From: an uncultured Oscillospiraceae bacterium
GTDB lineage: Bacteria; Bacillota; Clostridia; Oscillospirales; Oscillospiraceae
Direction of reading: 5' to 3'
DNA length: 41,673 bases
Assembly (NCBI GenBank): GCA_947587485.1
Contig: CANPXZ010000004.1
Coordinates: 1-41,673 of the forward strand
Each line of letters starts with the position of its first letter. The first letter of the stretch is position 1. A program made the translations under genes and the position numbers. Below the pieces are notes generated by a model. That model saw nothing but the letters and a program-made list of their open reading frames with translations, was not told the DNA's origin and searched no databases. Below are positions 1,684-38,776 of the stretch, piece by piece.

Positions 1684-1698
1684 CGGAGGAGCGAGAAG

Positions 1699-2646: not shown

Positions 2647-3950
2647 TCATGGCGGGGGGCAAGGGCACCCGCCTTCGCGCCATTACGAAGGACGAGATCC
2701 CCAAGCCTATGGCGCCGGTATGCAGCAAGCCGATCCTGGCCCGGCAGATCGAGACGCTCCGGGATCAGGGGATCGACGATATCGTGCTGATCGTAGGGTA
2801 TCTGGGAGAGAAGATCCGGGACTGGTTCCAGGACGGCGGGTCCTATGGCGTGCGCATCCGGTATATCGAGGAAGAGGAACCTCTGGGCACGGCGGGGGCG
2901 CTGGCGCTGCTGCCGCCGCTGCTGACGGGGGACAGCTTTTTCCTGGTGTTCGGGGACGTGCTGTTCGATATCGATCTGGGCCGGATGGCGGCGTTCCACC
3001 GGGAGAAGAACGCGGAGGCCACGCTGTTCGTCCATCCCAACAGCCACCCCTTCGACTCGGATCTGGTGGTCTGCGATGATACGGGCCGGGTGACCGGGTT
3101 CGATTCCAAGCATAACGAGCGGAACTACTGGTACGCCAACTGCGTGAACGCTGGGTTCTACCTGATGGACGCGAAGATCTGCGACCGGGTTCCGGAGGCG
3201 AAAAAGACCGACCTGGAAAAAGAGCTCCTGGCTGGCATGATCGCCCAGGGCGCGGCGGTATACGGCTACCGATCCCCGGAGTATATCAAGGACGTGGGCA
3301 CCGTGGAGCGCATCCAGGCCGCGGAGCGGGAGCTGACGGACGGCCTGATCGCGGGCCGCAGTCTTCGGCGCCGGCAGCGGGCGATCTTTCTGGACAGGGA
3401 CGGGACGCTGAACCGGGAGAACGGGCTGGTATACCGGGAGGATCAGTTTGCGCTGGAGGATCGAGCGGCGGAGGCGATCCGGCGCATCAACGGGTCAGGG
3501 TATCTGGCGATCGTGATAACGAACCAGCCGGTGGTGGCCCGGGGCCTGTGCGGGATAGAGGACGTGGAGAATATCCACCGGAAAATGCAGACGCTTTTGG
3601 GCCGGGAGGGGGCGTATCTGGACGGGATAGAGTACTGTCCGCACCACCCGGACAAGGGATACCCGGAGGAAAACCCGGCGTATAAGATCGCGTGCCATTG
3701 CCGCAAGCCGGACACAGGGATGATAGAGCGAGCGGCGGAGCGGTACAACATAGACGTGAGCGCATCGTGGATGGTAGGAGACAGTACGGTGGACGTGCAG
3801 ACGGGAAAGAACGCTGGCACGGGAACAGTGCTGGTACGCACGGGGGTGTCAGGCCGTGACGGGAAGTACGCGGTACGGGCGGACATGGAGTGCGCGGACA
3901 TACTGGAAGCGGTGGAAGAGATACTGAAGAGAGAGGGAGGACAGCGATGA
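2634..3950 (+). CDS. hddC-gmhB: Fused heptose-1-phosphate guanylyltransferase and heptose-1,7-bisphosphate 7-phosphatase
   Basis: One 438-residue protein carries two pathway steps. Residues 1-235 are a nucleotidyltransferase of the RmlA/GalF fold with MAGGKGTRLR at 6-15 and FGDVLFDID near 106-114. This part should join GTP and heptose 1-phosphate. Residues 248-438 are a HAD phosphatase of the GmhB type: FLDRDGT puts the nucleophile at D254 and the acid at D256, VITNQ is motif II, and CPHH with CHC gives the zinc site expected for GmhB. The ATG at 2634 overlaps the preceding gene by 13 bases, and the stop overlaps the gmhA start (ATGA). In most bacteria these are two genes, so the fusion is notable. 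Confidence 0.87.
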   Translation: MQAVIMAGGKGTRLRAITKDEIPKPMAPVCSKPILARQIETLRDQGIDDIVLIVGYLGEKIRDWFQDGGSYGVRIRYIEEEEPLGTAGALALLPPLLTGDSFFLVFGDVLFDIDLGRMAAFHREKNAEATLFVHPNSHPFDSDLVVCDDTGRVTGFDSKHNERNYWYANCVNAGFYLMDAKICDRVPEAKKTDLEKELLAGMIAQGAAVYGYRSPEYIKDVGTVERIQAAERELTDGLIAGRSLRRRQRAIFLDRDGTLNRENGLVYREDQFALEDRAAEAIRRINGSGYLAIVITNQPVVARGLCGIEDVENIHRKMQTLLGREGAYLDGIEYCPHHPDKGYPEENPAYKIACHCRKPDTGMIERAAERYNIDVSASWMVGDSTVDVQTGKNAGTGTVLVRTGVSGRDGKYAVRADMECADILEAVEEILKREGGQR

Positions 3951-4537
3951 CAGACTACAGAGAGCAGATAAAGAGCTATTTGGCGTACGAGCAGGCGACG
4001 CTTGCGGCGCTGGATATAGAGTCGATCAACCAGGCGCTGAACGTCCTGGAGGGGGCATACGAGCGGGGGAGCACCGTGTATATATTCGGAAACGGAGGCA
4101 GCTCCGCGACGGCGTCCCACTACCAGAACGATTTCAACAAGGGCGTGTCGGAGACGCTGGAGAAGAAGTTTGACTTCCGGTGCCTGAACGACAACATCGC
4201 GACGGTGATGGCGGTGGCGAACGACATCGGCTTTGAGGAGGTATTCCGTTACCAGCTGCGGGGTCACCTGAAGGCGGGAGACGTGGTGATGGCGATCTCG
4301 GGAAGCGGAAACTCGGCGAACGTGGTGTTGGCGGCGGAGTACGCGAAGGAGCAGGGGAACGAAGTGATAGGGATCACGGGCTATAACGGAGGGAAGCTGC
4401 GGAAGCTGTGCGACGTATCGCTGCACGCGCCGATCAACAGCATGCAGGTGACGGAGGACATACACATGATCTTCGACCATCTGATGATGAGCGTGATGTG
4501 CAAGAGCTTGGCAGGGATCGATCACTGCAAGGAGTAA
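3947..4537 (+). CDS. gmhA: Sedoheptulose 7-phosphate isomerase (SIS domain)
   Basis: This 196-residue SIS-domain protein should convert sedoheptulose 7-phosphate to D-glycero-D-manno-heptose 7-phosphate, the first step of the heptose route. The phosphate-binding loop FGNGGSSATASHYQNDF lies around residues 46-62, a second SIS loop SGSGNSANV near residue 121, and a late histidine in HMIFDHLMM matches the catalytic end of GmhA. Length fits the family (about 190). The start at 3947 overlaps the preceding TGA as ATGA, so translation is probably coupled. A second, more divergent gmhA lies at 28782. Confidence 0.87.
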   Translation: MTDYREQIKSYLAYEQATLAALDIESINQALNVLEGAYERGSTVYIFGNGGSSATASHYQNDFNKGVSETLEKKFDFRCLNDNIATVMAVANDIGFEEVFRYQLRGHLKAGDVVMAISGSGNSANVVLAAEYAKEQGNEVIGITGYNGGKLRKLCDVSLHAPINSMQVTEDIHMIFDHLMMSVMCKSLAGIDHCKE

Positions 4538-16235: not shown

Positions 16236-18347
16236 ATGATACTTAAAACAGACTTAGTGCTCAAGATCTTCATGACCTTTGCAACCGTTTTGATTGGGTA
16301 TTTCGTGCTGCGAAAAAAGCTGACTGTTGGACAACTTTTGATCTTTTGCCTGTCTGTCGCCATATTTGCGCTGGCAGCAGATCGCATATCCAAAATAATT
16401 CCGCCGCTGCGGGATAAAATAGTCATCACTGCGCTGGGGGAAAAGAACGAGGCAGCGCAGGCAGACGAGCTGTGGTTTTCCGGCTATACGGTAGACAGCG
16501 AAGTGTTTGAAAATGGAACATCCCTGCAGATCCGTGATGGGAAATGGTTCTGGAGCGGAGAAACGTATGTCTGGAGGAATGAACTGGATCCGCGTCAACC
16601 GGCGGGAACGACTCGGACGATTACAGTCGGTATCCCGGTCGGTTTGCATAGGTCGTTGAACTTCACGATGAACCCGTGGGGAGGAAAGGCTGAAATTGCG
16701 GATAGTCAGGGAAGCGAAGTATATGATTTTTATTCTGAAAAAGAAAGAACAGTAAGTATATCAATCTGTGAAAGTGAAACATCTCTGTTGATTTGGAATT
16801 GGATTCTCCATCTGGCAGTATACGCGATTGTTTTTTTAATATTGTCATATATTACAGCTGCGCTGATTATCCGTCTCAAGCGCGATTCGGTTTGGAGAGA
16901 AAAGCACAGTGGCAAACTGATTTACGGTGGCATTGCGGTATGGGCCTTTGTTCTGATGGCGACGTATGCGGGCAATACGCCGTTCTGGCAGGATGAGTTG
17001 TGGCAGATAACCGGAACCAGTGGGACGATTAAGGAGGCGATCCAGTACTGTCTGGAGGTGCGCGAGGCATCCCCTCCGCTGCCGTTCATTATTTCGACGA
17101 TTTGGTACCATATAGCGCCGTATGGGGAGCAGTGGCTCCTTATGGTATCGACTGTCCCGGTGACGATCGCTGTCTATGCCATGGGGTTGGCGGGCGAACG
17201 GGTCGGAGGCAGGCTGTTTGGGATACTGTCTGTAATCTTTATGGTGACGGTACCGACGTTGTGGGGCAACGTGGCCTATGAATACAGAGCTTATGCGTTC
17301 ATGGTAATGTTCTCAACGCTGACATTGTACAGCTACATCTACCGGAATCAGAATCCAACGTCAAAAAAAGCGAGTGTTTTGTTTGGACTTTCTATGACCG
17401 GCCTGGCAATGAGCCACTACTATGGTATGATAGCGTGCGTCTGTTATTTTGTGGCGGACTGTTTCCTAGTATATTACAAACAGCGATCCTGGAAGGAAGT
17501 GTTCACTTATTTTCTTCCAGGAGGCGTGAGTCTCATATGGCTCGTTCTAGTCGTGATCACTGTAGTCCGGGTCGGGGGAATGCAAGGAGAAGTTGCTTGG
17601 CAACCAGTTCCTTCGGTGGCGCTGGTCAAGGATGTGTTTGATTTTATTACAGGGTATTTCACTTTTGCTTGCTGGGTTTTGTTTGCGGGTGTTGCTGCAT
17701 CGCTGGTGGTCGCTTTTCGGCTTCGGAAAGAAACGTTTACATGGCAGCGGTTTTATGTATCTTTCTGTGGTCTTGCATTTCTCGGAACGATTACAGTGAT
17801 GTACATCTATGGCAATATCAATACAAAACACACGATGTGGCTCAGCAGGTATTTTTTCTTTTTATTACCACAATCCTGTTTTTTGTCAACATGGATAGTG
17901 GGAAAAGGCGCCGAGCTTCTTGGCCGGCAGGAAGAACAGACGGTGCTTATCCAGAAAACGGTATGTCTCTTTATTGCCGTAATCATGGGATTCAACTGTT
18001 GGAGTTATGGCATTAGGGCGCAGTTCATGTTGGAGCCTAATAAAGATGCTGCTGATTGGATATATACACAGATCAATACGATCTTCCTGGATGACACGGT
18101 GATTTTGGCGCCTAAGCATGTGGATGTAGGTTGGGAGAAGTATTACATTGAACGGCAGGGGCGCAGAGATCCGCTACATGTTGTCTGCCAGGCTGATATT
18201 GAAAAAGAAGAACTGCTGGCGTATGATACGGTGTTTACAATTACCCCGCTTCGTGAAGAACTGCAGAGAACCCTGGATGAAATGTATACTCTGGAGGTCG
18301 ATAATACAACGGCAGCAGCAAAACTTTATGTGAGGAATACAGATTAA
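16236..18347 (+). CDS. GT-C glycosyltransferase (ArnT/PMT-like) with inserted extracytoplasmic module (copy D)
   Basis: This is a 703-residue multi-membrane protein. Two helices (about 9-25 and 31-48) are followed by an outside module at about 58-182 related to the small protein at 7895 (ITALGEKNE, DELW, GKWFWSGETYVWR, DFYSEKE). From about 186 a GT-C core follows, with PFWQDELWQ putting D253/E254 in the first catalytic loop, and PPLPFIISTIWYHIAP like other GT39/GT83 enzymes. Such enzymes move a sugar from a polyprenyl phosphate carrier to an acceptor outside the membrane. The polyprenyl sugar probably comes from GT2 enzymes such as 18383. A run of seven A at 17363-17369 lies within the intact frame. 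Confidence 0.78.
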   Translation: MILKTDLVLKIFMTFATVLIGYFVLRKKLTVGQLLIFCLSVAIFALAADRISKIIPPLRDKIVITALGEKNEAAQADELWFSGYTVDSEVFENGTSLQIRDGKWFWSGETYVWRNELDPRQPAGTTRTITVGIPVGLHRSLNFTMNPWGGKAEIADSQGSEVYDFYSEKERTVSISICESETSLLIWNWILHLAVYAIVFLILSYITAALIIRLKRDSVWREKHSGKLIYGGIAVWAFVLMATYAGNTPFWQDELWQITGTSGTIKEAIQYCLEVREASPPLPFIISTIWYHIAPYGEQWLLMVSTVPVTIAVYAMGLAGERVGGRLFGILSVIFMVTVPTLWGNVAYEYRAYAFMVMFSTLTLYSYIYRNQNPTSKKASVLFGLSMTGLAMSHYYGMIACVCYFVADCFLVYYKQRSWKEVFTYFLPGGVSLIWLVLVVITVVRVGGMQGEVAWQPVPSVALVKDVFDFITGYFTFACWVLFAGVAASLVVAFRLRKETFTWQRFYVSFCGLAFLGTITVMYIYGNINTKHTMWLSRYFFFLLPQSCFLSTWIVGKGAELLGRQEEQTVLIQKTVCLFIAVIMGFNCWSYGIRAQFMLEPNKDAADWIYTQINTIFLDDTVILAPKHVDVGWEKYYIERQGRRDPLHVVCQADIEKEELLAYDTVFTITPLREELQRTLDEMYTLEVDNTTAAAKLYVRNTD

Positions 18348-18382: not shown

Positions 18383-19156
18383 ATGGAATTTAGATCTGTC
18401 AGTATTATTCTGCCGACTTTAAAGGAAACGGATTCTTTTATTCAGGCGGTCTCCATGCTCCTTGATATGAATGATCGGCAAGACATCGAAGAATTTATTG
18501 CTGTGGTCTGCGACCGAACAAAACCAGAGAGTTTTCAGAGTATAGAAAAAGGACGGAAGATCGCAGAGGCGGCTGGCATACCGCTTAAAGTGCTGCATCA
18601 GACACGCCCATTTTTCGGCGGGGCGCTCCAGGATGGGTTTGATGTGGCAAAGGGATCCCATGTTTGCATGGTCACGCCAGACCTTGATACTGCGCCGGAT
18701 AAAGTGCCGGAAATGATCATGCAGGCGAAACAATTTCCGGGAGATATAATCATTGGCTCCCGATGGAAAAAAGGCGGAGGATTTAAAAATTACAGCAGGA
18801 TCAAGAAAATATGGAATTTTTTCTCCCAAAAGTTTTTGGATGTGCTTTATCTATCCACACTCACAGACTTTACGTGGGGAAATCAGTTGACACCGACAAT
18901 ACTTGCGCGTGCGATTTATCATAGGGAAGATAAACATCCGATCAATATTGAACGAGTGGTCATCCCATTGAGGCTAGGCGTCGGCTTCCGTGAAGTCCCG
19001 GCAGTGTGTCACATGATGGATGGAGAGACGGTGAATCCATTAATGGCAAATCTCGCGTATCTACGCCCTGCTTTCCGTTGCCGCTTTGCACGGCGGGAGA
19101 CTTTGGTAAAGCCGGGAATCGACTGGAAGGCGCTTATGAAGGAGCTAAAAGGATAG
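18383..19156 (+). CDS. GT2 glycosyltransferase, polyprenyl-phosphate-sugar synthase-like
   Basis: This 257-residue GT2 resembles dolichol-phosphate-mannose-synthase-type enzymes that load a sugar onto a polyprenyl phosphate. VSIILPTLKETDSF opens it, FGGALQDGFDVAKGSH matches the DPM-type block, TPDLDT holds the DxD, and SRWKKGGGF follows. No membrane helix is present. A close paralogue lies at 22324 with the same length and order of motifs. It is followed by two GDP-fucose-synthase-like SDRs, so the sugar may be a GDP-deoxy(heptose) sugar, but this is inference. Confidence 0.8.
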   Translation: MEFRSVSIILPTLKETDSFIQAVSMLLDMNDRQDIEEFIAVVCDRTKPESFQSIEKGRKIAEAAGIPLKVLHQTRPFFGGALQDGFDVAKGSHVCMVTPDLDTAPDKVPEMIMQAKQFPGDIIIGSRWKKGGGFKNYSRIKKIWNFFSQKFLDVLYLSTLTDFTWGNQLTPTILARAIYHREDKHPINIERVVIPLRLGVGFREVPAVCHMMDGETVNPLMANLAYLRPAFRCRFARRETLVKPGIDWKALMKELKG

Positions 19157-19171
19157 GAGGGTAGGAATGCA

Positions 19172-20173
19172 ATGGAACAAACGGCAAAGATCTATGTGGC
19201 TGGACATACAGGGTTGTTTGGTTCAGCGCTTGTTCGCGCACTGGAGAAAAGAGGATTTGCAAATATAGTTACGCGCACCCATGCCGATCTTGATTTGACA
19301 GACGGCGCCGACACAATGGCCTTCTTTAAAACGGAAAGGCCGGATTATGTTTTTGTGGCAGCGGCTAAAGTGGGGGGCATTCAGGCAAATAATCTGTATA
19401 TGGCGGATTTTGCCATGGAGAATTTGCTTATTACCTGTAATGTGCTGCGCGCCGCCCACGAGGTGGGAGTGAAAAAACTTCTTTATCTTGGCTCTTCCTG
19501 TATTTACCCGAGAGAAGCAGATCAGCCAGTGAAGGAGGAGTATTTACTGACTGGTTTGCCGGAACCTACAAATGAAGGCTATGCCGTCGCAAAGATCGCA
19601 GGCGTGCGGATGTGCGATTACTATAAGCGGCAGTATAATGACGATTTTATAAGCTGCATACCTGCTAACGTATACGGGGAAAATGATAACTTTGATTCAC
19701 AGAACAGCCATGTGATACCGGCGCTGCTTCAGAGATTCCATCAGGCAAAGAAGGAACGGGCACCTTATATTGAGATATGGGGCACGGGCAGCGCAGAACG
19801 GGAATTCATGTATATTGATGATGGCGCCGATGCATGCCTCTATGTTATGGAGCACTATAATGGACCGAGGACTATCAATATTGGAATGGGCCGCACAACT
19901 TCGATCCGTGAACTTGCTGAGCAGATTCGCAAGGTAGTCGGATATGAAGGAGAGATCCGTTACGACACTACCAAACCGGATGGCATGCCGCGCAGGCTGC
20001 TGGAGAGCAGCAAGATCACAAATCTGGGCTGGGCGCCGCGTATCGAATTGGCGGACGGATTGGAGAAAACATACCGTTGGTATTTGAATAAGCTTGCGGA
20101 TAAAGAGGATCGCGTCAGAAAGGAGATCGACATGAATAAGGACGATAAGGTTTTTGTGGGGGGGTTGGAGTAG
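19172..20173 (+). CDS. GDP-L-fucose synthase-like SDR (epimerase/reductase)
   Basis: This SDR of the GDP-fucose synthase family (Fcl/ColC/MlghC-like) carries out C3/C5 epimerisation and/or C4 reduction of a GDP-4-keto-6-deoxy sugar. VAGHTGLFGSALV near residues 9-21 is the cofactor loop, GSSCIYPREA is the family signature, and YAVAK is the catalytic YxxxK. It is 333 residues as read. The true C-terminus is probably earlier, since the last 14 residues (MNKDDKVFVGGLE) are the start of the next gene, which has its own AAGGAG site. The frame then stops after a G7 tract. With one more G the two SDRs would be read as one continuous protein. Confidence 0.82.
   Translation: MEQTAKIYVAGHTGLFGSALVRALEKRGFANIVTRTHADLDLTDGADTMAFFKTERPDYVFVAAAKVGGIQANNLYMADFAMENLLITCNVLRAAHEVGVKKLLYLGSSCIYPREADQPVKEEYLLTGLPEPTNEGYAVAKIAGVRMCDYYKRQYNDDFISCIPANVYGENDNFDSQNSHVIPALLQRFHQAKKERAPYIEIWGTGSAEREFMYIDDGADACLYVMEHYNGPRTINIGMGRTTSIRELAEQIRKVVGYEGEIRYDTTKPDGMPRRLLESSKITNLGWAPRIELADGLEKTYRWYLNKLADKEDRVRKEIDMNKDDKVFVGGLE
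20158..20164 (+). repeat. Poly-G tract (G7) inside the cofactor loop of the second SDR
   Basis: Seven G encode part of the glycine-rich NAD(P) loop. With G7 the frame from the ATG at 20132 ends at TAG 20171-20173. With G8 or G11 it continues as ...VAGTAIVRLLQKNGYIN into the gene at 20188. G11 gives the same loop spacing as the paralogue at 19172. Confidence 0.8.
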
Positions 20174-20187
20174 CAGGTACTGCAATT

Positions 20188-21063
20188 GTGCGATTGTTAC
20201 AAAAAAACGGCTATATTAACATTTTGGCTCCAACTCATAGGGAGTTGGATCTGGGTTCCAGCGAACAGGTGAGCCGCTTCTTTCATGATAACAGACCGCA
20301 GTATGTGTTTTATACGGCGGCCAAGATGGGTGGCATCACTTACCGGAACGCACACCCCGCAGAGCTTTTGCTGGAGAATCTGCAAATGCAGGTCAACGTG
20401 ATCCAATATGCACATGAGTATGGCGTAAAGCGTTTGCAGTTTATGAGCAGTGACTTCATTTATCCAGAGAAGACAGCAGACGGCACATTGCGGGAGGAAG
20501 ACTTTTTGAACGGTCTTCCCAGCAGAAGAGATTTTCCATACAGTTTGGCAAAGATCGTTGGGGTAAAGTTGTGTGACTATTATCGTGAAGAATATGGCGA
20601 CAGTTTTTTTACAGTCGTACCTTGTGCGTTTTTTGGTATAGACTCGTCATTTGATGTTGAACGGGCAAATGTGGTGGCGTCATTGATGAGACGAATGCAC
20701 GAAGCTAAGGAATCTGGCACGCGGGAATTTGTCTTATGGGGCACAGGGAAACCGGTCAAGGAATTCCTATTCAGTGACGATTTGGCTTCAGCCTGTGTTC
20801 TGCTGATGGAGCAGGATGCATGTGAGGGGCTTTACAATATTGGCTCGGGTTCTGGCGGCATTTCCATTATGTCGCTGGCAGAGAGCATCAGAGAAGTAGT
20901 TGGGTATAAAGGCAGAATCGTCTGTGATCCATCTATGCCGGATGGCGTCCCCCGCAGAGTTCCGGACTCTACGCGCTTGCGGTCGCTGGGATGGAGACCG
21001 TTATACGATCTACAAACGGCACTCCAGTTGACGTACGATCATTTTATTAAGTCATGCGCGTGA
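20188..21063 (+). CDS. Second GDP-fucose synthase-like SDR, N-terminus cut off by a G7 frameshift
   Basis: As written the frame starts at GTG 20188 and yields 291 residues without the cofactor loop. The intended start is the ATG at 20132 (AAGGAG six bases before it) and the intended N-terminus MNKDDKVFVGG, which is out of frame by one base at the G7 tract. The remainder is a good SDR: TAAKMGGITYRN, SSDFIYPEK, YSLAK as YxxxK, and WGTGKPVKEFLFSDD. It parallels the gene at 19172 and probably makes a different stereoisomer. In the sequence as given the enzyme should be inactive. Confidence 0.78.
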   Translation: MRLLQKNGYINILAPTHRELDLGSSEQVSRFFHDNRPQYVFYTAAKMGGITYRNAHPAELLLENLQMQVNVIQYAHEYGVKRLQFMSSDFIYPEKTADGTLREEDFLNGLPSRRDFPYSLAKIVGVKLCDYYREEYGDSFFTVVPCAFFGIDSSFDVERANVVASLMRRMHEAKESGTREFVLWGTGKPVKEFLFSDDLASACVLLMEQDACEGLYNIGSGSGGISIMSLAESIREVVGYKGRIVCDPSMPDGVPRRVPDSTRLRSLGWRPLYDLQTALQLTYDHFIKSCA

Positions 21064-21103: not shown

Positions 21104-22327
21104 ATGAAAGTCTTGATTTTGGGCGCCGGCGCAGCTGGATTGACACTGGGGAACAGGCTGGTGGATAAAGGGATTGATTCATTTTTGATCCTTGAGAAGG
21201 AAACGGAACCGGGGGGCCTTTGCCGCTCCATAGAGTTTGAGGGCGAGCCGATCGATATTGGTGGACCGCACTATTTGGATCATCGTTCTGAAAAAGTGTT
21301 GAACTACTTGTTTGGCTTCATGCCCAAGGACGAGTGGAATCTCTATGAGAGGGACAGCAGAATACTGGTGAATGGGCAGCTCATCAACAGCCCGTTTGAA
21401 GCAAATCTATGGCAAATGGATCTGGATAGCCAAGTTGGCTATCTGGAGTCTATTTCTGCAGCCGGGTGCAACACGGGGGCCAATGCGCCGGAGAGCTTTA
21501 AGAACTGGATATATTGGAAACTCGGTAAACGTATAGCTGATGATTATATGATCCCTTATAACTCCAAACTCTATGGAGACAATCTGGACGCCATGGGAAC
21601 ATACTGGCTATATAAATTGCCAAGCGTCTCATTCCGGGAGACGCTGTTGAGTTGCCTGCAAAAGAGAGCGTATGGTACACAGCCATGCGTGGCAGAGTTT
21701 TATTATCCCAAGAAAACGGGCTTTGGAGAATTGTGGCGCAGAATGGCGGATCGGCTGGAGGGGCATATCTTCTGCAATCAGAGCGTCAGTTATATTGATA
21801 TGGATCGCAAGACCGTGAAGACGAAGACAGGCGAAACATATCAGGCGGATATTATTATTACCACGATCCCTTGGAGATGCTTTGATGAAATAGACGGGCT
21901 GCCAAAGGAACTGAAGGAAGGATTGAAAAGCCTGAAGTATGTGGCTATAGAGAACCGGTATATCAACGATGACGTGGATACGCAGGCGCAGTGGGTGTAT
22001 TTCCCGGATATGAAACTGCCCTACCATAGAGCGACTATCCGTAAAAATGTTTGGCCGACTATGCATGGCATGATAATTGAGATCAATCAAAATAGAGTGA
22101 AGCTCATACCGGATGATATGCCGTATAACTATAAGTTTGCTAATGAGTATGCCTATCCGGTCAATACGATTGGCAAGCCGGAGCTTATGAAATCTGTGCT
22201 GGCATATGCGGGGCAAAAACAAGTATATGGTCTTGGCAGGTGGGGAGAGCATCAGCACCACAATTCTGATGTGGTCGTTGAATTGGCAATGGATTTTGTG
22301 GATAAAGTGGCGGAGAAGATCATATGA
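21104..22327 (+). CDS. FAD-dependent mutase/oxidoreductase, UDP-galactopyranose mutase-like
   Basis: This is a 407-residue flavoprotein. LILGAGAAGLTLGNRL gives the Rossmann FAD loop GxGxxG at 7-12, LILEKETEPGGLCRS binds the adenosine part, and a C-terminal GLGRWGEHQHHNSD block closes the FAD site. The order resembles UDP-galactopyranose mutase and amine-oxidase relatives, but it differs from the true glf at 37592. It could convert a pyranose to a furanose form of one of the local nucleotide sugars; this is a guess from family and place. The start at 21104 follows GGAGGG, and its stop overlaps the next start as ATGA. Confidence 0.72.
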   Translation: MKVLILGAGAAGLTLGNRLVDKGIDSFLILEKETEPGGLCRSIEFEGEPIDIGGPHYLDHRSEKVLNYLFGFMPKDEWNLYERDSRILVNGQLINSPFEANLWQMDLDSQVGYLESISAAGCNTGANAPESFKNWIYWKLGKRIADDYMIPYNSKLYGDNLDAMGTYWLYKLPSVSFRETLLSCLQKRAYGTQPCVAEFYYPKKTGFGELWRRMADRLEGHIFCNQSVSYIDMDRKTVKTKTGETYQADIIITTIPWRCFDEIDGLPKELKEGLKSLKYVAIENRYINDDVDTQAQWVYFPDMKLPYHRATIRKNVWPTMHGMIIEINQNRVKLIPDDMPYNYKFANEYAYPVNTIGKPELMKSVLAYAGQKQVYGLGRWGEHQHHNSDVVVELAMDFVDKVAEKII

Positions 22328-23100
22328 GATTTGAAAATGTTTCAGTAATCATTCCTACGCTGCGAGAAACAGAATCATTTCTCCAGACAATAGATACGAT
22401 CTTGGATAGTTGCGAGCATCAGGATTTGAAAGAATTTCTCATAATGGTTTGCGACGCGACTACCGAGCGATCTATGGAATATATTCTCAGATGCAAAGCT
22501 CGAGTTGAATCTATGGGGATCTGTTTCCGCATAGAGCGTCAACAGCGGCCGTACTTAGGCGGAGCGCTGGTCGATGGTTTTTTGGCGGCAAAAGGCTCAC
22601 ATCTTGTAGTCGAAACTGCAGATCTGAACACGGCGCCGGAAAACTTGGCGTCTATGATCGAACTTGCAAAGCAGTATCCCATGGATGTGATATCATGCTC
22701 CCGATGGCTTAAGGGAAGCGGTTTTGAAAACTATCAGTTTGTCAAGAGAGCTTGGAATTATTGCTCGCAGAAGCTATTGCAAGCGCTTTATATGACGCGC
22801 TTGAGCGATTTCACTTGGGGGACGCATTTGGTGCCGTCTGCACTTTACCAAGCCATTGATTTTCAGGAGAGAAAGCACCCGATCGCAGTGGAGGAGGCAG
22901 TGATTCCTTTGCGCTTGGGTATTGCGTTTCATGAGATTCCTGGAATATGTCATGTTGACGAGAGCGATGTCTCTGTGCAGCCGCTTTGGGCAAACGTTCT
23001 CTATTTGCGGCCAGCGTTCAAGTGGCGGTTCGCAAAGAAGGAAAAAATGCTGCGCAAAGGCGTCGATTATGATGATTTGATAAACAGGCTGAGAGGATAA
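22324..23100 (+). CDS. GT2 glycosyltransferase, paralogue of the gene at 18383
   Basis: This 258-residue GT2 matches the protein at 18383 in length and motif order: VSVIIPTLRETESF, LGGALVDGFLAAKGSH, SRWLKGSGF, DFTWGTHLVP and a closing RPAFKWRFAKKEKML. The DxD is TADLNT, so the second aspartate is asparagine, which is tolerated in some GT2s but should be noted. It likely loads a polyprenyl phosphate with a sugar formed by the flavoenzyme just upstream, to which it is coupled by a four-base overlap. Confidence 0.8.
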   Translation: MRFENVSVIIPTLRETESFLQTIDTILDSCEHQDLKEFLIMVCDATTERSMEYILRCKARVESMGICFRIERQQRPYLGGALVDGFLAAKGSHLVVETADLNTAPENLASMIELAKQYPMDVISCSRWLKGSGFENYQFVKRAWNYCSQKLLQALYMTRLSDFTWGTHLVPSALYQAIDFQERKHPIAVEEAVIPLRLGIAFHEIPGICHVDESDVSVQPLWANVLYLRPAFKWRFAKKEKMLRKGVDYDDLINRLRG

Positions 23101-23193
23101 AGCATCAATACCTATTGTAATTATTCCGGAAAAGGAGCGCAGGTCGGTGCAACCGCGTGAGGTAAGTTGGCATAGGGTAGAGAGGTGGAATTG

Positions 23194-24336
23194 GTGGAGC
23201 TTTCTGTAGTGATGTTGGCGTATCATGGGGATGAGAGTCTGAGGCGGTTTTTTCCGGAAGTGAAAAAAGTGATCGGGACGATGGATGTTGATTCGGTTGA
23301 GTATTTGATTGTTGATTCAGCTAATCCGGCAGTTGATACCGAGGGTGTATGCAGGGAGTTGGGCGTTCGCTATGTCAAACAGGAAGAATTTGGCTATGGT
23401 GGAGCATACCGAACTGCCATCCGGCATGCACAGGGCGGATCGGTTCTGATTCTAGATACCGATGGTTCTCAGAGCATTGATCAGATCCCCAGGATGTATC
23501 AGGAACTGAAGGCCGGCGCTGATGTGGTGCTCGGATCGTATGTTTCAGGTGAAAAGACTGATGAGCCAAGATTACCCCGAATCATGTCCAGAATGTTGAG
23601 CTTTTTTTCCCGGCTTGGGATCGGTGTCAACATACGTGATTTCTCAGGCAGTTTGAGACTTTATCATACGGAGGATCTGCAACGGCTTCACTTGGTTAGT
23701 GAGGACGTAAATATATTAGGAGAACTGATTCTTAAGTTAGAACTGTCAAAAGGAAATGCTATTGTTACAAAAGAAGTCCCGATCTCCTATCTGAGAAGGA
23801 TCGAAGACGGATCGAAATATTCCCTGATCAGGTTCGTCATATCTTTTGGACGAATGTTGGTATATTCGATGGTTTTACGGTTCCTGGCTAGAGGAGGGTA
23901 CTGTACGCAAAAGCATGATCCGCGTGCACAGACGATAACTGATCTGCTATTTTATGGCATAGTAGGAGCTATGACAGCGGCAGTCAATCTTGTGGTATAT
24001 TTTCTTCTGGAAAATGTCGTGCATTATCTGTTCGCTAATGCAATTGCGTGGATAATCTCTGTTTTGTTTGCTTTTATAACAAACAAAACGATAGCATTCA
24101 ATAATTGGGATTGGGATCACATCGCCTTAGTAAAAGAATTCATAGGGTTTGTGACTTCGAGGCTTATTACTGGCGCTTTGGATATGCTGATGCTTTGGTT
24201 GATGGTAGATTTGGCGGCGATGGGCGGTTCCCTCCCGAAATTCTTGGACGCAATCACCGTGATCATTTTGAATTATGTATTCGGAAAGTATGTTTTTAAA
24301 GAAAAAAAGGAACGGAGCTCTGAGCAAGAGCGGTAA
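23194..24336 (+). CDS. GT2 fused to a GtrA-like membrane domain
   Basis: This 380-residue protein joins a GT2 domain (LSVVMLAYHGDESL, FGYGGAYRTAIRHAQG, LILDTDGSQSID with the DxD) to a C-terminal GtrA domain (about 245-372) with four membrane helices. GtrA proteins are thought to flip polyprenyl-phosphate sugars, and GT2 partners make them. Here both steps are in one chain. I chose GTG 23194 because AGAGGTGG stands five bases before it. GTG 23185 in the same frame has no good ribosome site. It could supply the GT-C enzymes at 16236 or 29570. Confidence 0.75.
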   Translation: MELSVVMLAYHGDESLRRFFPEVKKVIGTMDVDSVEYLIVDSANPAVDTEGVCRELGVRYVKQEEFGYGGAYRTAIRHAQGGSVLILDTDGSQSIDQIPRMYQELKAGADVVLGSYVSGEKTDEPRLPRIMSRMLSFFSRLGIGVNIRDFSGSLRLYHTEDLQRLHLVSEDVNILGELILKLELSKGNAIVTKEVPISYLRRIEDGSKYSLIRFVISFGRMLVYSMVLRFLARGGYCTQKHDPRAQTITDLLFYGIVGAMTAAVNLVVYFLLENVVHYLFANAIAWIISVLFAFITNKTIAFNNWDWDHIALVKEFIGFVTSRLITGALDMLMLWLMVDLAAMGGSLPKFLDAITVIILNYVFGKYVFKEKKERSSEQER

Positions 24337-24523
24337 TTACAGGATTAAAGTTTGTGCGGAGGATGAGACAAGAGCGGGACGATATGAATAAGAGTTTTTC
24401 CTTTGCAGTCTGAACTGATCGTGGCTGATAGGTCAGAAGAGCGGTTTGCGCGCATCCAGGCGGCTATTGACGAAAACCTGGGACGCGTGTAATATAGAAA
24501 AACAAAACCGGAGGAGTGACATT
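24337..24523 (+). other. 187-base gap with a short coding relic
   Basis: Between the GtrA fusion and the dehydratase there is a short frame ending at 24492 whose last residues read ELIVADRSEERFARIQAAID then ENLGRV. Amino-acid use looks protein-like but the frame has a stop a few codons upstream, so this is probably the tail of a deleted gene. A good ribosome site (GGAGGAG) for the next gene lies at its end. No promoter was recognised. Confidence 0.35.
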
Positions 24524-25690
24524 ATGTTAAACATACCACTGATGAAAAATAACATCCTGCCTGAAGATATAGAGGCTCTCGTCACGTTTTTGCGTACAGA
24601 AGATCGGCTGACGAATGGACCGAAGGTCGTGGAATTTGAGAAAGCGTGGAGTGAATGGCTGGGTGTGAAGCACAGTTTGTTCGTTAATTCCGGAGCTTCT
24701 GCGAATCTAATTACCATGGCGGTCATCCGGGATCTGTATGGCCCTGGCGAAGTCATCGTGCCGCCCATTACTTGGAGCAGCGATATAACCTCTGTTTTTG
24801 CCGCGGGATTGACGCCGGTGTTTGCTGATGTAAACGTGAGTAATATGGCCATGGACGAGGAAGAGATAATCTCGCATTTGAGTGAGAATACCCGTGCGGT
24901 GTTCTTGACCCATGTGCTGGGTTTCAATGGCCTGTCACAGCGGCTCTTGGAAGAGCTGAAGGCACGGAATATCCCTCTGATCGAGGATGTATGCGAGTCC
25001 CATGGCGCGAGTATGGGAGGAAAGAAGTGCGGCACCTTTGGCTTGGCGTCTAATTTCTCTTTTTACTATGCACATCATATGAGCACGATTGAAGGCGGTA
25101 TGATCTGCACGGATGACGATGGGTTTTATCAAATGTGCCGAATGTATCGCAGCCATGGTATGGTGCGGGAATTGACGGATGAAAATATGAAACGCGAATA
25201 TGCGGAGAAGCATCCGGATCTCCGACCGGAGTTTCTGTTTGCGGTACCCGGATATAATATGCGTAGTACAGAACTGAACGCTGTGATGGGGCTTAGCCAG
25301 TTGCCCCGCTTGGATGCAAACAATGCACGCCGAGTGGAAAATTTGAAGCTTTTCATCAGTCATTTGGATCCGGAGAAATACTTTACAGATTTTGCGATGG
25401 AGGGCGCCGTCAATTATGCGTTCGTGGTTTTGCTGTGTCATCCCAGTGAGGAGAAGTTCCAAGCGTTGACAGATATGCTGCGTGCCGAGAATGTGGAATT
25501 CAGAAGAGGGACGGCAGGTGGTGGAAACATGGCCAGGCAGCCATTTGTGCGTCAGAGAATGCCAGGGTTTAACCCCGCTTCGCTCAAAAATGCAGATATC
25601 ATCCATTTTTATGGGCTTTATACCGGAAACTATCCGACGTTGGAAAAAGAGAAAATATTGGGGCTTTGTGAGTGCCTCAACAGTCTATAA
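24524..25690 (+). CDS. ColD-like PLP-dependent 3-dehydratase (DegT/DnrJ/EryC1 family)
   Basis: This 388-residue DegT-family protein has FSFYYAHHMSTIEGG near residues 178-191, where the Schiff-base lysine of aminotransferases is replaced by histidine (H184). That substitution marks GDP-4-keto-6-deoxymannose 3-dehydratase (ColD) and related 3-deoxygenating enzymes, which use PLP plus glutamate to remove the C3 hydroxyl. Length also fits. With the 4,6-dehydratase-like gene at 26709 the product would be a GDP-3,6-dideoxy sugar. Given two heptose pathways nearby, a 3,6-dideoxyheptose is an attractive possibility. ATG 24524 was chosen for its GGAGGAG site. Confidence 0.8.
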   Translation: MLNIPLMKNNILPEDIEALVTFLRTEDRLTNGPKVVEFEKAWSEWLGVKHSLFVNSGASANLITMAVIRDLYGPGEVIVPPITWSSDITSVFAAGLTPVFADVNVSNMAMDEEEIISHLSENTRAVFLTHVLGFNGLSQRLLEELKARNIPLIEDVCESHGASMGGKKCGTFGLASNFSFYYAHHMSTIEGGMICTDDDGFYQMCRMYRSHGMVRELTDENMKREYAEKHPDLRPEFLFAVPGYNMRSTELNAVMGLSQLPRLDANNARRVENLKLFISHLDPEKYFTDFAMEGAVNYAFVVLLCHPSEEKFQALTDMLRAENVEFRRGTAGGGNMARQPFVRQRMPGFNPASLKNADIIHFYGLYTGNYPTLEKEKILGLCECLNSL

Positions 25691-25712: not shown

Positions 25713-26687
25713 ATGCAAGTGAGTGCTGGTTTGGAAAACAGAAGGATTTTGGTCACTGGGGGAGCAGGCTTTGTTGGCACGAATGTGATTAGACGCCTCG
25801 CAGCAGAGAAAGCGACAGTGACGGGAACCTATCATAAGCATATGCCTCGCTTTCCAGTGGAAGGAGTAGAATATGTACAGGCCGATCTGACGCAAAAGGA
25901 GGATTGTCTCCGCGTGACAGCTGGAAAGGATGCAGTTGTGTTGACGGCGGCCTTTGTCGCGGGCGCTCAGGGTATGCTGGCAAAGCCTATGGGATTGGTC
26001 ACTGATACAGTCATTATGAATCTCCGCATGCTGGAATCGGCTTATGAAAACGGCGTGAAGAAGTGCATCTATATCAGCAGCGGCATGGTCTATCCGTTTT
26101 CTAAGGAACCGTTGACCGAAGATAAGGGCTATATAGGCGATCCCTTTGAAAAGTATTTTACTGGAGGGTGGAGCCGGCGTTTTGTAGAGATCGTATGCAG
26201 GATGTATGCGGAGAAGTTGCGCGCTATGAATATAACGGTTCTACGTATTGATAATCTGTATGGTCCCTGTGATAAATTTGAGCACGCGAAATCTCATGTT
26301 ATGGCGTCTCTGATTCGCAAGGCTGTTGAGCGGATGGATCCTTTTGAGGTATGGGGAGACGGCAAAGATTATAAAGACTTCATTTATGTGGAAGATCTAG
26401 CAGAAGGTATCGTCCTTGCGTTGAAAAAGGTGAGTGGATTTAACATCTACAACCTGGCATCCGGACGGAATGTAACGATCAATGACGCATTGAAGATCAT
26501 CCTCCGTTGTGCAGATTATGAAGACGCAAAGATCGTCTATAATGCGGACATGCCCACGATGATCCCATATAAAGTTCTATCAGTGGAGAAGGCACACAGA
26601 GAACTGGGGTTTGAGGCACGAACTTCATTGGAGGAAGGAATACAAAAAACGATTGATTGGTACCGGGAGCATCCGGCTTTAGACTGA
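25713..26687 (+). CDS. Extended SDR with altered YxxxK catalytic motif
   Basis: This 324-residue NAD-binding protein (ILVTGGAGFVGTNVIRRL) has SSGMVYPFSKEPL like GDP-fucose synthases and dehydratases. Where the catalytic Y-x-x-x-K should stand, it reads G-G-W-S-R (in FTGGWSRRFVEI), so both the tyrosine and the lysine appear replaced. Either the enzyme uses another residue, or it has become non-catalytic or structural. It lies between the ColD-like and the 4,6-dehydratase-like genes and would be expected to be the C4 reductase or C5 epimerase of that route. Start ATG at 25713, 22 bases after the preceding stop. Confidence 0.75.
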   Translation: MQVSAGLENRRILVTGGAGFVGTNVIRRLAAEKATVTGTYHKHMPRFPVEGVEYVQADLTQKEDCLRVTAGKDAVVLTAAFVAGAQGMLAKPMGLVTDTVIMNLRMLESAYENGVKKCIYISSGMVYPFSKEPLTEDKGYIGDPFEKYFTGGWSRRFVEIVCRMYAEKLRAMNITVLRIDNLYGPCDKFEHAKSHVMASLIRKAVERMDPFEVWGDGKDYKDFIYVEDLAEGIVLALKKVSGFNIYNLASGRNVTINDALKIILRCADYEDAKIVYNADMPTMIPYKVLSVEKAHRELGFEARTSLEEGIQKTIDWYREHPALD

Positions 26688-26708
26688 TATTTAGAAAGGT
26701 TGATCGAT

Positions 26709-27731
26709 ATGGCAACAAGAGCACTTATAACAGGTATAACGGGTATGGTCGGATCACATCTGGCGGACTTCCTGTTGGAAAAAACGAATTGGGAGGTATA
26801 TGGGGTCTGCCGATGGAGAAGCCCTATAGATAACGTATCTCACCTCATTGAACGTGTGAATCAAAAGGACAGGATCTATTTTGAATATGCTGATTTGAAT
26901 GATGCCGTCTCGCTTATCCATGTGATGGAAAAGGTCAAACCAGATTACATTTTTCATCTGGCTGCACAAAGCTATCCTTTGACTAGCTTTGATTCTCCCT
27001 TAGATACGCTGAACACGAATATTTTGGGCACATGCCGCTTGCTGGAGGCAGTCCGTGTTGCGGGTCTAGATCCGACTATCCATGTCTGCGCATCCTCTGA
27101 GGTTTTTGGAAAGATCCCACCGGAAAAGAAGCCGGAGACGGGCATTCACGAGGACTGCCCATTCCATCCGGCATCTCCTTATGCAATCTCCAAAGTGGGG
27201 ACAGATCTGTTGGGACGGTATTATGCAGAGGCATATGGGCTAAAAGTCATGACGACTCGTATGTTCACGCATACAGGGCCTCGCCGTGGAGATGTGTTCC
27301 ATGAGTCTACTTTTGCTAAGCAGATTGCTATGATTGAGAAAAGACTGATCGAACCTGTAGTCAAAGTGGGGAATCTCAAATCCTTGCGAACCTACGCGGA
27401 TGTTCGGGATGCGGTGAGAGCGTATTATATGCTGGTTACGGTCAATCCAATTCCCGGGGAGTATTATAATATCGGAGGCAGCTATACTTGTACGGTGGGT
27501 GACACGCTCAATACGTTGCTTTCTTTCTCTCCCATGGGACAGAGCATCCGGATCGAGGTCGATCCGGAACGGCTGCGTCCCATCGATGCGGATCTGCAGG
27601 TACCGGACTGCACTAAGTTCAAAAAACATGCCGGCTGGGAACCAGAAATCCCTTACGAAAAGACGATGCTAGATCTTCTGGATTACTGGCGTGAGCGTAT
27701 TAACAGGGGAGAACAGTTCCTGACAAGATAA
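26709..27731 (+). CDS. GDP-mannose / GDP-heptose 4,6-dehydratase-like SDR
   Basis: This 340-residue SDR follows the GDP-mannose 4,6-dehydratase pattern: ALITGITGMVGSHLADFL, DYIFHLAAQSYPLTSFDSP, SPYAISK as YxxxK, and TRMFTHTGPRRGDVFHES. The close homologues DmhA (Campylobacter, Yersinia) act on GDP-D-glycero-alpha-D-manno-heptose. With a heptose kinase and isomerase immediately downstream, the heptose substrate is favoured, but GDP-mannose is not excluded. The ATG at 26709 has AGAAAGG upstream. Confidence 0.8.
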   Translation: MATRALITGITGMVGSHLADFLLEKTNWEVYGVCRWRSPIDNVSHLIERVNQKDRIYFEYADLNDAVSLIHVMEKVKPDYIFHLAAQSYPLTSFDSPLDTLNTNILGTCRLLEAVRVAGLDPTIHVCASSEVFGKIPPEKKPETGIHEDCPFHPASPYAISKVGTDLLGRYYAEAYGLKVMTTRMFTHTGPRRGDVFHESTFAKQIAMIEKRLIEPVVKVGNLKSLRTYADVRDAVRAYYMLVTVNPIPGEYYNIGGSYTCTVGDTLNTLLSFSPMGQSIRIEVDPERLRPIDADLQVPDCTKFKKHAGWEPEIPYEKTMLDLLDYWRERINRGEQFLTR

Positions 27732-27771: not shown

Positions 27772-28785
27772 ATGATCATTACCCAGACGCCCTTCCGGGT
27801 CTCGTTCTTCGGTGGAGGAACAGACTTTCCGGCATTTTATGAAAAATATGGCGGACAGGTTTTGTCTACCAGCATCAATAAGTACTGCTATATCACGGTG
27901 CGTCATCTCCCGCCGTTTTTTGAGTATTCAAACAGCGTAATGTATTCTCAGATAGAGCGAGTAAAAAATATTGCTGATATTGAACATCCGGCGGTAAGGG
28001 AAGCTATGAAATTCTTGGATATGCATGAACTATCCATTATTTATGATGCAGATCTTCCGGCTCGGACAGGGTTGGGAACAAGCAGTTCTTTTGCTGTTGG
28101 CCTGTTGCTGGCTTTTCATTCTTTGAAAGGAAAGTATGCAGACAAAAAGCGTCTGGCGGATGAGGCAATTTATTTGGAACGCGCACTGTGTAATGAGAGC
28201 GGTGGCCTTCAGGATCAGATTGCAGTTGCATACGGGGGACTTAATAAGATCATCTTTAATTCCAGCGGCTATAGAGTGCAGCCGGTGGTGGTAAATGATG
28301 AAAATAAGAAAGCGTTGGACGAAAATCTGATGCTGTTCTTTACGGGCATTTCCAGGTATTCATTCTCTATTCAAGCAGAGCATGAGAGAAATTTGGAGGT
28401 AAAGAACCGGCAGCTTCTCCAAATGAAGGATCTGGTAGATGAGGCGGAAATGGCGCTGGTGGAGGGAAGAGTAGATGATTTTGGCAGCCTGTTAGAGCAG
28501 GAATGGCAGTTGAAGCGGGAGATTAATGGCAGTGTAACGAATCCTGCGATAGATAGCTATTATGCCCGGGCCAGGAAGGCAGGCGCTCTAGGAGGAAAAC
28601 TTCTTGGGGCAGGCGGTGGAGGTTTTCTTCTGCTTTATGCGAAGAAAGAGAAGCAAGATTCGGTTCGTGAAGCTCTTTCTGAATTGCTGGAGATTCCGTT
28701 CGGATTTGAGACCGGAGGCGCTAAAGTCTTGTACTATATGCCGGAGAGCTATGTCCTGCCTTGGGAGAGGGAGGCAAAAGGATGA
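27772..28785 (+). CDS. hddA: Second heptose 7-phosphate kinase (GHMP family)
   Basis: This 337-residue GHMP kinase has the same opening as the gene at 697 (MIITQTPFRVSFFGGGTDF), GLGTSSSFAVGLLLAF as the ATP loop and KLLGAGGGGFLLLY as motif 3. It is too diverged from the first copy to be a recent duplicate and its base composition is more AT-rich. It has a good GAGAGGAAA ribosome region and overlaps the next gene as ATGA. No second guanylyltransferase is seen here, so the fused hddC-gmhB at 2634 may serve both sets. Confidence 0.87.
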   Translation: MIITQTPFRVSFFGGGTDFPAFYEKYGGQVLSTSINKYCYITVRHLPPFFEYSNSVMYSQIERVKNIADIEHPAVREAMKFLDMHELSIIYDADLPARTGLGTSSSFAVGLLLAFHSLKGKYADKKRLADEAIYLERALCNESGGLQDQIAVAYGGLNKIIFNSSGYRVQPVVVNDENKKALDENLMLFFTGISRYSFSIQAEHERNLEVKNRQLLQMKDLVDEAEMALVEGRVDDFGSLLEQEWQLKREINGSVTNPAIDSYYARARKAGALGGKLLGAGGGGFLLLYAKKEKQDSVREALSELLEIPFGFETGGAKVLYYMPESYVLPWEREAKG

Positions 28786-29420
28786 AGCAAAGTACTGAAT
28801 ATATTGTCCAAAAATATATCGAGAGGCACAGCTTCGTAGAGGAACTGAAGGAAAAGCTATGCGAAGCCGTGGAGATTTTAGAGACCTCCTATCAGAAGGG
28901 CGGCAAGCTGCTAATTTGTGGAAACGGCGGAAGCTGTGCGGATGCTAGTCATATTGTTGGTGAACTGATGAAACCGTTTCGGATCTCGCGTCCGCTGGAT
29001 CGGAGAACGCGGTCAGCTTTGTTGAAACAAGGTGTGCCTTGTCTGGCAGAGATGTTAAAGGGGGCATTGCCGGCAGTCGACCTGGGGGCACAGGCGGCGC
29101 TCATCACAGCACAGCTCAATGATGTGGGAGCAGACTTTATCTATGCGCAGCAGGTCATCGGATATGGCTGCCCGGGTGATGTACTTTTAGGCATCAGCAC
29201 TTCGGGGAACTCAAAGAACATATTGTATGCTGGCGTTGCAGCTAATGCTAAGGGAATGAAGACCATTGGACTGACTGGAAAGTCCGGGGGTAAAATGGGG
29301 AAGTTTTTTGATGTGCTCCTCTGTGCGCAGGCTGAAGACACAGAAGATATTCAGGATATGCATAGCGTTATCTATCACCTGCTGTGTGCGGCAGTAGAAA
29401 ATGAGTTTTGGGGAGAATAA
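28782..29420 (+). CDS. gmhA: Second sedoheptulose 7-phosphate isomerase (SIS domain)
   Basis: This is a 212-residue SIS protein with CGNGGSCADASHIVGEL (phosphate loop), ISTSGNSKNI, TGKSGGKMG and a terminal DIQDMHSVIYHLL with the catalytic-type histidine. It has an insertion (about residues 68-105, including KPFRISRPLDRRTRS) that the first gmhA lacks. It is coupled to hddA by a four-base overlap. Together they form a second heptose supply set beside the ColD-like and 4,6-dehydratase-like genes. Confidence 0.85.
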   Translation: MKQSTEYIVQKYIERHSFVEELKEKLCEAVEILETSYQKGGKLLICGNGGSCADASHIVGELMKPFRISRPLDRRTRSALLKQGVPCLAEMLKGALPAVDLGAQAALITAQLNDVGADFIYAQQVIGYGCPGDVLLGISTSGNSKNILYAGVAANAKGMKTIGLTGKSGGKMGKFFDVLLCAQAEDTEDIQDMHSVIYHLLCAAVENEFWGE

Positions 29421-37591: not shown

Positions 37592-38776
37592 ATGGAAAAG
37601 ATCATCGTAGTAGGCAGCGGGTTTTCGGGGGCGATATTGGCCCGGAAAATCGCGGAGGAGCTGGAGCGCAAGGTTCTGATCGTGGAGAAGCGTCCGCACA
37701 TCGGCGGCAATATGTACGACGAGGTGGACGAGCACGGGATCCTGGTTCAGAAGTACGGGCCCCATTTTCTCAACACAAACAATTACCGGGTGATCGCCTT
37801 TCTCAAGCAGTACGCGGCGCTCTTCCCCCACGAGACAAAGCTGCTCAGCTATATCGACGGACAGTACGTGCGGCTGCCGTTCAATTTCAAGACGGTGCAG
37901 CAGCTGGTGGGGCCGGAGCGGTCGGAGGGACTGCTGAAGAAGCTGCGGACGGCGTTCGCGGGCCGGGATCGGGTGCCGATCCTGGAGCTGGTGGATCACG
38001 CCGATCCGGACGTGAGCGCATACGGAAACCTCCTGTTTGAGAAGGCGTACCGGACGTATACGTCCAAGCAGTGGGGCATCCAGCCGGAGGAGATCGACAA
38101 GTATGTTCTCGACCGGGTACCCATGGCCATGAACTACGATGAACGGTATCTGAACAAGGACTTTCAGTACCTGCCCATAGAGGGCTTCACAAAGCTGTTC
38201 GAGCGCATGCTGGATCACCCGAACATACGGGTGGAGCTGAACACGGACGCGCTGGAGAAGCTGACGATGGGCGAGGGGACGGTGTCCTACGGGGGAGAGC
38301 CGGTGCAGTGCCTGATCTGGACCGGCCCCATTGACGAGCTGTTCCATTACCGTTACGGCGCGCTGCCCTACCGGTCACTGGATATCCGTTACAGCTACGA
38401 GGACAAGCCCAGCATCCTGCCCAGCGAGATCATATCCTACCCCCAGGCGCCGGGGTATACGCGCAGCACGGAGTACAGGAAGATCATGTATGACGATGGC
38501 GGCGCCCGGGGCTCGGTGGTGGCCACGGAGTATCCGCTGGCCTATGACCCAAAGGCGGCGGTGGGGAACGTGCCCTACTACCCGGTGGTGACGAAGGCCA
38601 GCAGCGCCGTATACGAGCAGTACCTGGAGCAGGCGGCAGAGTACAGGAATCTCTTCCTGTGCGGGCGTCTGGCGGAATTCAAGTACTACAACATGGACAT
38701 CTGCATCGAGCACGCCCTGGCGTACTTTGAGAACGTGAGGGACTATCTGAAGAGAGATAAAGAGGAGAGCAAATGA
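37592..38776 (+). CDS. glf: UDP-galactopyranose mutase
   Basis: This 394-residue flavoenzyme should convert UDP-galactopyranose to UDP-galactofuranose. [15 protein letters not shown] is the FAD loop, [13 protein letters not shown] and [11 protein letters not shown] are strong Glf signatures, [12 protein letters not shown] follows, and AFNKGYT-type residues appear as [14 protein letters not shown]. The C-terminal [13 protein letters not shown] is typical. The ATG at 37592 is preceded by AAGGGTAGA. It implies a galactofuranose in the glycan. Its end overlaps rmlA as ATGA. Confidence 0.9.

Follow-up and report, generated by a model that had tools for sequence, protein, structure and literature searches.

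A predicted GDP-deoxy-heptopyranose/furanose mutase of the eukaryotic-type UGM branch in a GDP-heptose gene cluster of an uncultured Oscillospiraceae bacterium

The 41,673-nt stretch of DNA from an uncultured Oscillospiraceae bacterium that was analysed here (the window) encodes both an ordinary glf and a divergent UGM-like flavoprotein, which raises the question of what the second protein does and on which sugar it acts. The original prediction described this flavoprotein as distinct from the true glf, coupled to a GT2 and placed among GDP-sugar genes, and raised the possibility of a mutase for another sugar, such as a heptofuranose. The gene is intact (Table 1), its product has a complete Rossmann/FAD N-terminus (Pfam NAD_binding_8, and Amino_oxidase at 56 bits), and it overlaps the GT2 gene that follows on the same strand by 4 bp. 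The sequence matches of the flavoprotein in the PDB were UGMs, with A. fumigatus UGM (4u8j) at 1.4e-27, T. cruzi UGM (4dsg) at 5e-25 and bacterial UGM far weaker at ~1e-6. When a profile of 63 orthologues was used, the match to eukaryotic-type UGM improved to 9e-41. An AlphaFold (AF2) model built from these orthologues had a pLDDT of 91.7 and a pTM of 0.89 and contained the three-domain UGM fold with its FAD site. The top Foldseek match of the model was T. cruzi UGM (4dsh, TM 0.87, E 4e-32), A. fumigatus UGM had a TM of 0.84, and the eukaryotic UGMs were followed by protoporphyrinogen oxidases and bacterial UGM. On a tree, the protein was located among eukaryote-type relatives, apart from A. 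fumigatus UGM itself. The protein belongs to the eukaryotic-type UGM branch and not to the bacterial Glf branch, a placement that the original prediction had not foreseen.

With bacterial Glf (PF03275/TIGR00031), such as the product of the glf in the window, the flavoprotein shares the superfamily and a presumed FADH2 mechanism, but it differs in its uridine site and its gene context and lacks the GLF domain match. No match to Pfam GLF was obtained, and the TIGR00031 score of 45.4 bits was under the cut-off of 303.75 bits. These scores bear on whether the protein could be an alternative UDP-galactopyranose mutase, redundant with the glf at 37592. Such a second Glf would be in keeping with the UGM fold and the retained diphosphate residues, but it is very improbable given the family scores, the loss of Gln107 and Tyr104, the changes of Arg182 to Lys, Asn207 to Val and Tyr453 to His, a cassette without UDP-Gal genes and the true glf genes that the genome already has. 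A simple second glf was rejected because of the family cut-offs and the uridine-site residues, and the distinction drawn in the original prediction between this gene and the true glf is borne out. The host genome (G000) has three further Pfam-GLF genes besides that in the window, on contigs C21, C57 and C10, and furanose sugars therefore seem common in the glycans of the host.

Residue roles were taken from the A. fumigatus UGM (PMC3624792, Table 3), and positions were mapped by profile alignment across 83 family sequences. Invariant in all 83 were H56, N153 (Asn163), Y299 (Tyr317), R309 (Arg327), Y351 (Tyr419), R379 (Arg447) and N387 (Asn457). The protein is thus like the eukaryotic-type UGMs (A. 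fumigatus 3ukh, T. cruzi 4dsg) in its fold, FAD site, flavin-stacking His, Arg327/Tyr317/Tyr419, Asn163 and Asn457. It is unlike them in having Glu99 (for Gln107), Ser96 (Tyr104), Lys171 (Arg182), Val196 (Asn207) and His385 (Tyr453), in an identity of ~22% over the structure alignment and in its GDP-heptose gene neighbourhood. In the alignment, the eukaryotic-type uracil site Tyr104/Gln107/Phe158 was not kept and reads Ser96/Glu99/Tyr148, and the Tyr104 position is Ser, His, Tyr or Gln across the family. Structure prediction and active-site comparison, two of the checks suggested with the original prediction, favour it, as the UGM fold is present with the phosphate and flavin residues invariant and the base and sugar positions altered.

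The same residues bear on an alternative reading, in which the protein is not a ring mutase but a flavin-using oxidoreductase akin to amine oxidases and protoporphyrinogen oxidases that acts on a sugar or lipid. The Amino_oxidase match, the proximity to PRK07208 ("hypothetical protein") in NCBIfam and the rank of protoporphyrinogen oxidases just after the UGMs in the fold search would be expected of such an enzyme. However, every oxidase ranked behind the eukaryotic UGMs, with E-values weaker by several orders of magnitude; nucleotide-sugar and glycosyltransferase genes make up the conserved neighbourhood, and all family members keep the diphosphate and flavin-stacking residues that are specific to UGMs. 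We consider this oxidoreductase quite improbable, and it was rejected because of these invariant residues.

The substrate-binding arginines, whose loss the original prediction had named as evidence against itself, were examined on alignments with a divided result. Of the two arginines that bind the substrate phosphates, Arg327 is kept as R309 in 83/83 sequences, but Arg182 is replaced by the invariant Lys171. In fungal UGM, R182K keeps ~10% of activity, R182A keeps 6e-6, and R327 is essential (PMC3893270). By analogy, the change of Arg182 to Lys appears to be a tolerated one. Since R309 is kept and the fungal R182K enzyme is partly active, the replacement would probably not amount to the loss that had been named.

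Table 1. Features of the window considered in this study, with their positions and the basis of each assignment.
Feature	Position	Strand	Basis
First GDP-heptose gene set: HddA, SDR, HddC-GmhB fusion, GmhA	694..4537	+	Sequence similarity
Large glycosyltransferase-like membrane protein, resembling the GT39/GT-C type; might use a lipid-linked sugar	16236..18347	+	Sequence only
Paralogous GT2, homologue of 22324-23100	18383..19156	+	Sequence similarity
Second GDP-fucose-synthase-like epimerase/reductase, all catalytic residues present	19172..20173	+	NCBIfam and motif
Run of seven G breaking the C4-reductase frame relative to intact orthologues	20158..20164	+	Comparison with L022-L024
C4-reductase, GDP-fucose-synthase-like, N-terminus out of frame	20188..21063	+	YxxxK kept; epimerase residues Cys109, His179 replaced by Phe, Asn
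UGM-fold flavoenzyme, predicted GDP-heptopyranose/furanose mutase, 407 aa, ATG start	21104..22327	+	Sequence, profile and fold searches
H56 codon; equivalent of conserved flavin-stacking His63	21269..21271	+	Invariant 83/83; role from PMC3624792
E99 codon, at uracil-binding Gln107 position of A. fumigatus UGM; proposed guanine-reading residue	21398..21400	+	Invariant 83/83
K171 codon, at Arg182 position	21614..21616	+	Invariant 83/83; profile alignment with R182K structure 3ukk
V196 codon, at sugar-binding Asn207 position	21689..21691	+	Family mostly His; Val/Gln only with 3-dehydratase neighbour
R309 codon (Arg327), diphosphate-binding	22028..22030	+	Invariant 83/83
GT2, distantly ArnC/polyprenyl-phosphate-GT-like, 258 aa, ATG start; predicted furanosyl donor-forming transferase	22324..23100	+	Profile match; neighbour kept in L022-L024
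GT2 fused to GtrA domain (polyprenyl-phosphate sugar synthase and flippase-like domain)	23185..24336	+	Pfam GtrA_DPMS_TM, Glycos_transf_2
ColD-like PLP enzyme, predicted GDP-4-keto-6-deoxy-heptose 3-dehydratase	24521..25690	+	Best PDB match 2gms (ColD/WbdK) 1.7e-44
GDP-fucose-synthase-like SDR, catalytic Tyr/Lys absent, His179 kept	25740..26687	+	Domain match and motif
GDP-heptose 4,6-dehydratase	26700..27731	+	Best PDB match 7us5 2.5e-112 vs ~1e-44 for GDP-mannose dehydratases
HddA-like heptose-7-phosphate kinase	27772..28785	+	Profile matches
GmhA-like sedoheptulose-7-phosphate isomerase	28782..29420	+	Sequence similarity
Ordinary glf (UDP-galactopyranose mutase), for contrast	37592..38776	+	Pfam GLF 186 bits; TIGR00031 357 bits, above cut-off

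The genes around the mutase (Table 1) place it among GDP-sugar genes, as the original prediction had it, and it is these neighbours that point to a heptose as the substrate. The 4,6-dehydratase was closest to the C. jejuni GDP-heptose 4,6-dehydratase in the PDB search. The ColD-like enzyme, which the original prediction had not anticipated, has His where the PLP lysine would be, the ColD-type hallmark (motif HHMSTIEGG, in alignment with the ColD active site), and since a 3-dehydratase is present in the cassette, the sugar is probably a 3,6-dideoxy-heptose. The SDR between these two genes might act as an epimerase without reductase activity. The trio of GDP-heptose 4,6-dehydratase, PLP-dependent 3-dehydratase and C4-reductase resembles the C. 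jejuni 3,6-dideoxy-heptose pathway of HS:5 and HS:11 (PMC10680097), from which the mutase step is absent and in which the product remains a pyranose. Within the first GDP-heptose gene set, a single open reading frame (2643-3950) joins an HddC-like nucleotidyltransferase to a GmhB-like HAD phosphatase, and similar full-length matches were present at four other loci (L014, L016, L024 and L201).

The C4-reductase copy beside the mutase, also unforeseen, is frameshifted in this assembly. Since the encoded protein has lost Cys109 and His179 but kept the Tyr/Lys pair, it would be expected to be a plain C4-reductase. Phase variation, death of this gene copy or a mistake in the assembly could each account for the break at the run of seven G; the pathway may therefore be off or may rely on the product of 19172-20173. 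An intact second reductase-like gene, that at 19172, lies just upstream of the frameshifted copy. In C. jejuni, C4-reductases make GDP-3,6-dideoxy-D-arabino-heptose and GDP-3,6-dideoxy-D-lyxo-heptose from a shared intermediate, and poly-G tracts are thought to select between two C4-reductases (PMC10680097). Two other runs of nine G each, at 11745 and 35973, are located in or near open reading frames of the window and are candidate phase-variable tracts.

One scan of 84,980 species genomes recovered 80 loci of the mutase family. Cultured bacteria that carry a member include Kineothrix alysoides and a Butyrivibrio sp. The closest orthologues were in three rabbit-gut-named MAGs of Clostridia (L022-L024; 83, 83 and 72% identity), all of which have an intact C4-reductase and share the gene order C4-reductase, mutase, GT2 and ColD-like enzyme. 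The GT2 coupling of the original prediction is thus seen both in the 4-bp overlap and in these relatives. In L023 and L024 the cassette extends to the GDP-heptose 4,6-dehydratase and HddA, and in L024 also to GmhA and HddC. The recurrence of this gene order in three genomes is far beyond chance. At 55% identity, the mutases of L029 and L037 adjoin the ColD-like enzyme and heptose genes, and elsewhere on the tree a selenomonad mutase (L073) is found with a reductase, HddA, the heptose dehydratase and HddC.

Elsewhere in the family (L026, L031, L034, L058 and L082 among others), the mutase adjoins genes for the hexose GDP-mannose 4,6-dehydratase, fucose synthase and ManC. The neighbours in L021/L082 amount to an entire GDP-colitose-type set (GDP-mannose dehydratase, ColD, fucose synthase and ManC), and the mutase of L058/L071 lies in complete GMD-cupin-Fcl-ManC operons; these operons suggest GDP-colitofuranose and another GDP-6-deoxy-hexofuranose, respectively. 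Such loci, together with a true GDP-mannose dehydratase on another contig of the host genome (512 bits), would fit a mutase for a GDP-6-deoxy-hexose such as GDP-fucose or GDP-colitose in the window as well, with the adjoining heptose genes serving another residue of the same glycan. However, the cassette of the window and its closest orthologues holds the heptose-type dehydratase, not the hexose one, together with a heptose kinase and isomerase, and the window clade has a residue signature of its own (P55, Y157, H386 and V/Q196). A hexose substrate for this protein is unlikely, and a GDP-heptose remains the preferred reading.

The link to GDP-sugars extends across the family. A GDP-sugar-specific gene lay within 9 kb (<=9 kb) of the mutase in 23/81 distinct members and a dTDP gene in 1/81; the remaining 58/81 had no GDP gene within that distance. 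In a control of 36 true glf loci from the same order, which were placed by known coordinates and in some of which the glf ORF was missing from the ORF calls or the contig was short, GDP genes were found at two loci, dTDP genes at four and heptose genes at none. The difference in GDP linkage (23/81 vs 2/36) gave a Fisher p of 0.006. Among genomes whose mutase lacked a GDP neighbour, 41/50 encode GDP-mannose 4,6-dehydratase elsewhere, compared with 33/90 at family level (p = 2e-7) and 7/118 at class level; since the carriers are mostly Lachnospiraceae-like, the class-level background inflates the difference, and the family-level figure is the fairer one. For the other nine of these 50 genomes, an incomplete sequence or the use of a different sugar may be the explanation.

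To compare the base-binding position, remote UGM-like proteins that share roughly 22-31% identity were gathered from the family, class and phylum; the mutases of L011, L012 and L016 were located by tblastn. Glu occupied the Gln107 position in 5/5 remote proteins inside GDP-heptose gene sets (L011, L012, L014, L016 and L201). Gln was retained in L013, L015, L017 and L202, which have no GDP-sugar genes nearby, and L214, which groups with A. fumigatus UGM, retains the full uracil set. In other remote relatives the residue is Thr, Ser, Lys, Asn, Ile or Gln. Glu with no GDP neighbour was confined to L215 and L200, and the L200 genome carries a GDP-mannose dehydratase; the remote protein at L215:9376-10779, with no close GDP-sugar neighbour, is the one clear exception. 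A carboxylate is an established reader of guanine N1/N2. The natural interpretation is that Glu99 would be the guanine-reading residue, as judged from alignment to a UDP complex and not a GDP complex.

A second position, that of Asn207, varied with the 3-dehydratase. Of the 81 distinct members, 74 have His there, and the seven with Val or Gln are precisely those with a ColD-type 3-dehydratase neighbour. The Val/Gln changes had two origins on the tree, and an independent-pairs test against ColD had too few pairs for significance. The pattern is compatible with a residue that would contact the sugar near C3.

Two further lineages were noted among the remote proteins. The UGM-like proteins of L014, L016 and L201 (24-28% identity) lie beside HddA1, an SDR, HddC-GmhB and GmhA; the genes of this operon other than the mutase match the 694-4537 set of the window, and Glu is at the Gln107 position. 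This lineage is a candidate separate GDP-heptose mutase. A third lineage of ~30% identity (L011:9136-10380 and L012:4185-5117) lies by a GDP-heptose 4,6-dehydratase, a small cupin, HddA and HddC, and the cupin is possibly a sugar ketoisomerase or epimerase.

From the fold, the conserved mutase residues, the GDP-heptose cassette, the GDP linkage of the family and the change at the base position, we infer that this member of the eukaryotic-type UGM branch is probably an FADH2-dependent GDP-deoxy-heptopyranose/furanose mutase, whose product would probably be GDP-3,6-dideoxy-heptofuranose destined for a lipid-linked donor pathway. The mutase for another sugar raised in the original prediction is thus supported as a predicted activity. 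In the proposed pathway, the 4,6-dehydratase would convert GDP-heptose to the 6-deoxy-4-keto sugar, the ColD-like enzyme would take off the 3-OH and C4 would be set by a GDP-fucose-synthase-like reductase. N5 of the reduced FAD of the mutase would then attack C1 with displacement of GDP, and the ring would open through an iminium and re-close via O4 to give GDP-3,6-dideoxy-heptofuranose. Both the distant likeness of the overlapping GT2 to polyprenyl-phosphate sugar synthases and the GtrA domain that comes after it suggest a furanose donor linked to a lipid. This GT2 and the GT2-GtrA fusion would probably load the furanose onto polyprenyl phosphate, and the membrane glycosyltransferase might then use the lipid-linked furanose.

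The nearest precedents are in C. jejuni. The CDP-fucopyranose mutase HS41.17 and the UDP-arabinopyranose mutase HS15.16 are experimentally proven and FADH2-dependent, and isotope exchange with both supports the N5-FAD mechanism proposed for UGM (PMC12369002, PMC10615251). Like the enzyme predicted here, these mutases act on sugars other than galactose, with CDP or UDP as their nucleotide. GDP-6-deoxy-heptopyranoside mutases were predicted in HS:10, HS:41 and HS:60 (HS10.16, HS41.15 and HS60.11) and were uncharacterised when published; HS:60 has a 3-dehydratase and a mutase together, with a product undetermined at publication (PMC10680097). The reaction proposed for these proteins, compared by description, is the same, and a GDP-heptose mutase has therefore been suggested before. 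The new elements, in gut Bacillota, are a separate branch associated with GDP across the family, a probable specificity residue and a defined cassette. No characterised GDP-sugar pyranose/furanose mutase was found in the literature covered, where the C. jejuni GDP-heptose enzymes are predictions. A search of the same literature on Eubacterium saburreum furanose glycans found no structural paper, and these glycans were given no weight.

More broadly, we tentatively suggest that gut Bacillota may have a whole family of GDP-sugar pyranose/furanose mutases with the eukaryotic-type UGM fold, in which Glu at the position that reads the base would set guanine specificity, and that the window clade may make GDP-3,6-dideoxy-heptofuranose and hand it to a polyprenyl-phosphate furanose donor pathway. 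If so, GDP-3,6-dideoxy-heptofuranose would be a previously unknown activated sugar. The family is well populated and has a clear genomic signature, with cassettes ready for reconstitution; it offers the hypothesis that a single residue (Gln107/Glu99) decides between UDP and GDP, and a further residue varies with whether the 3-OH is present. Under this assignment, many genes that are annotated as "amine oxidase" or "hypothetical protein" in Lachnospiraceae and Oscillospiraceae of the gut would become predicted furanose-glycan genes, and it may aid the prediction of unusual surface sugars of gut commensals.
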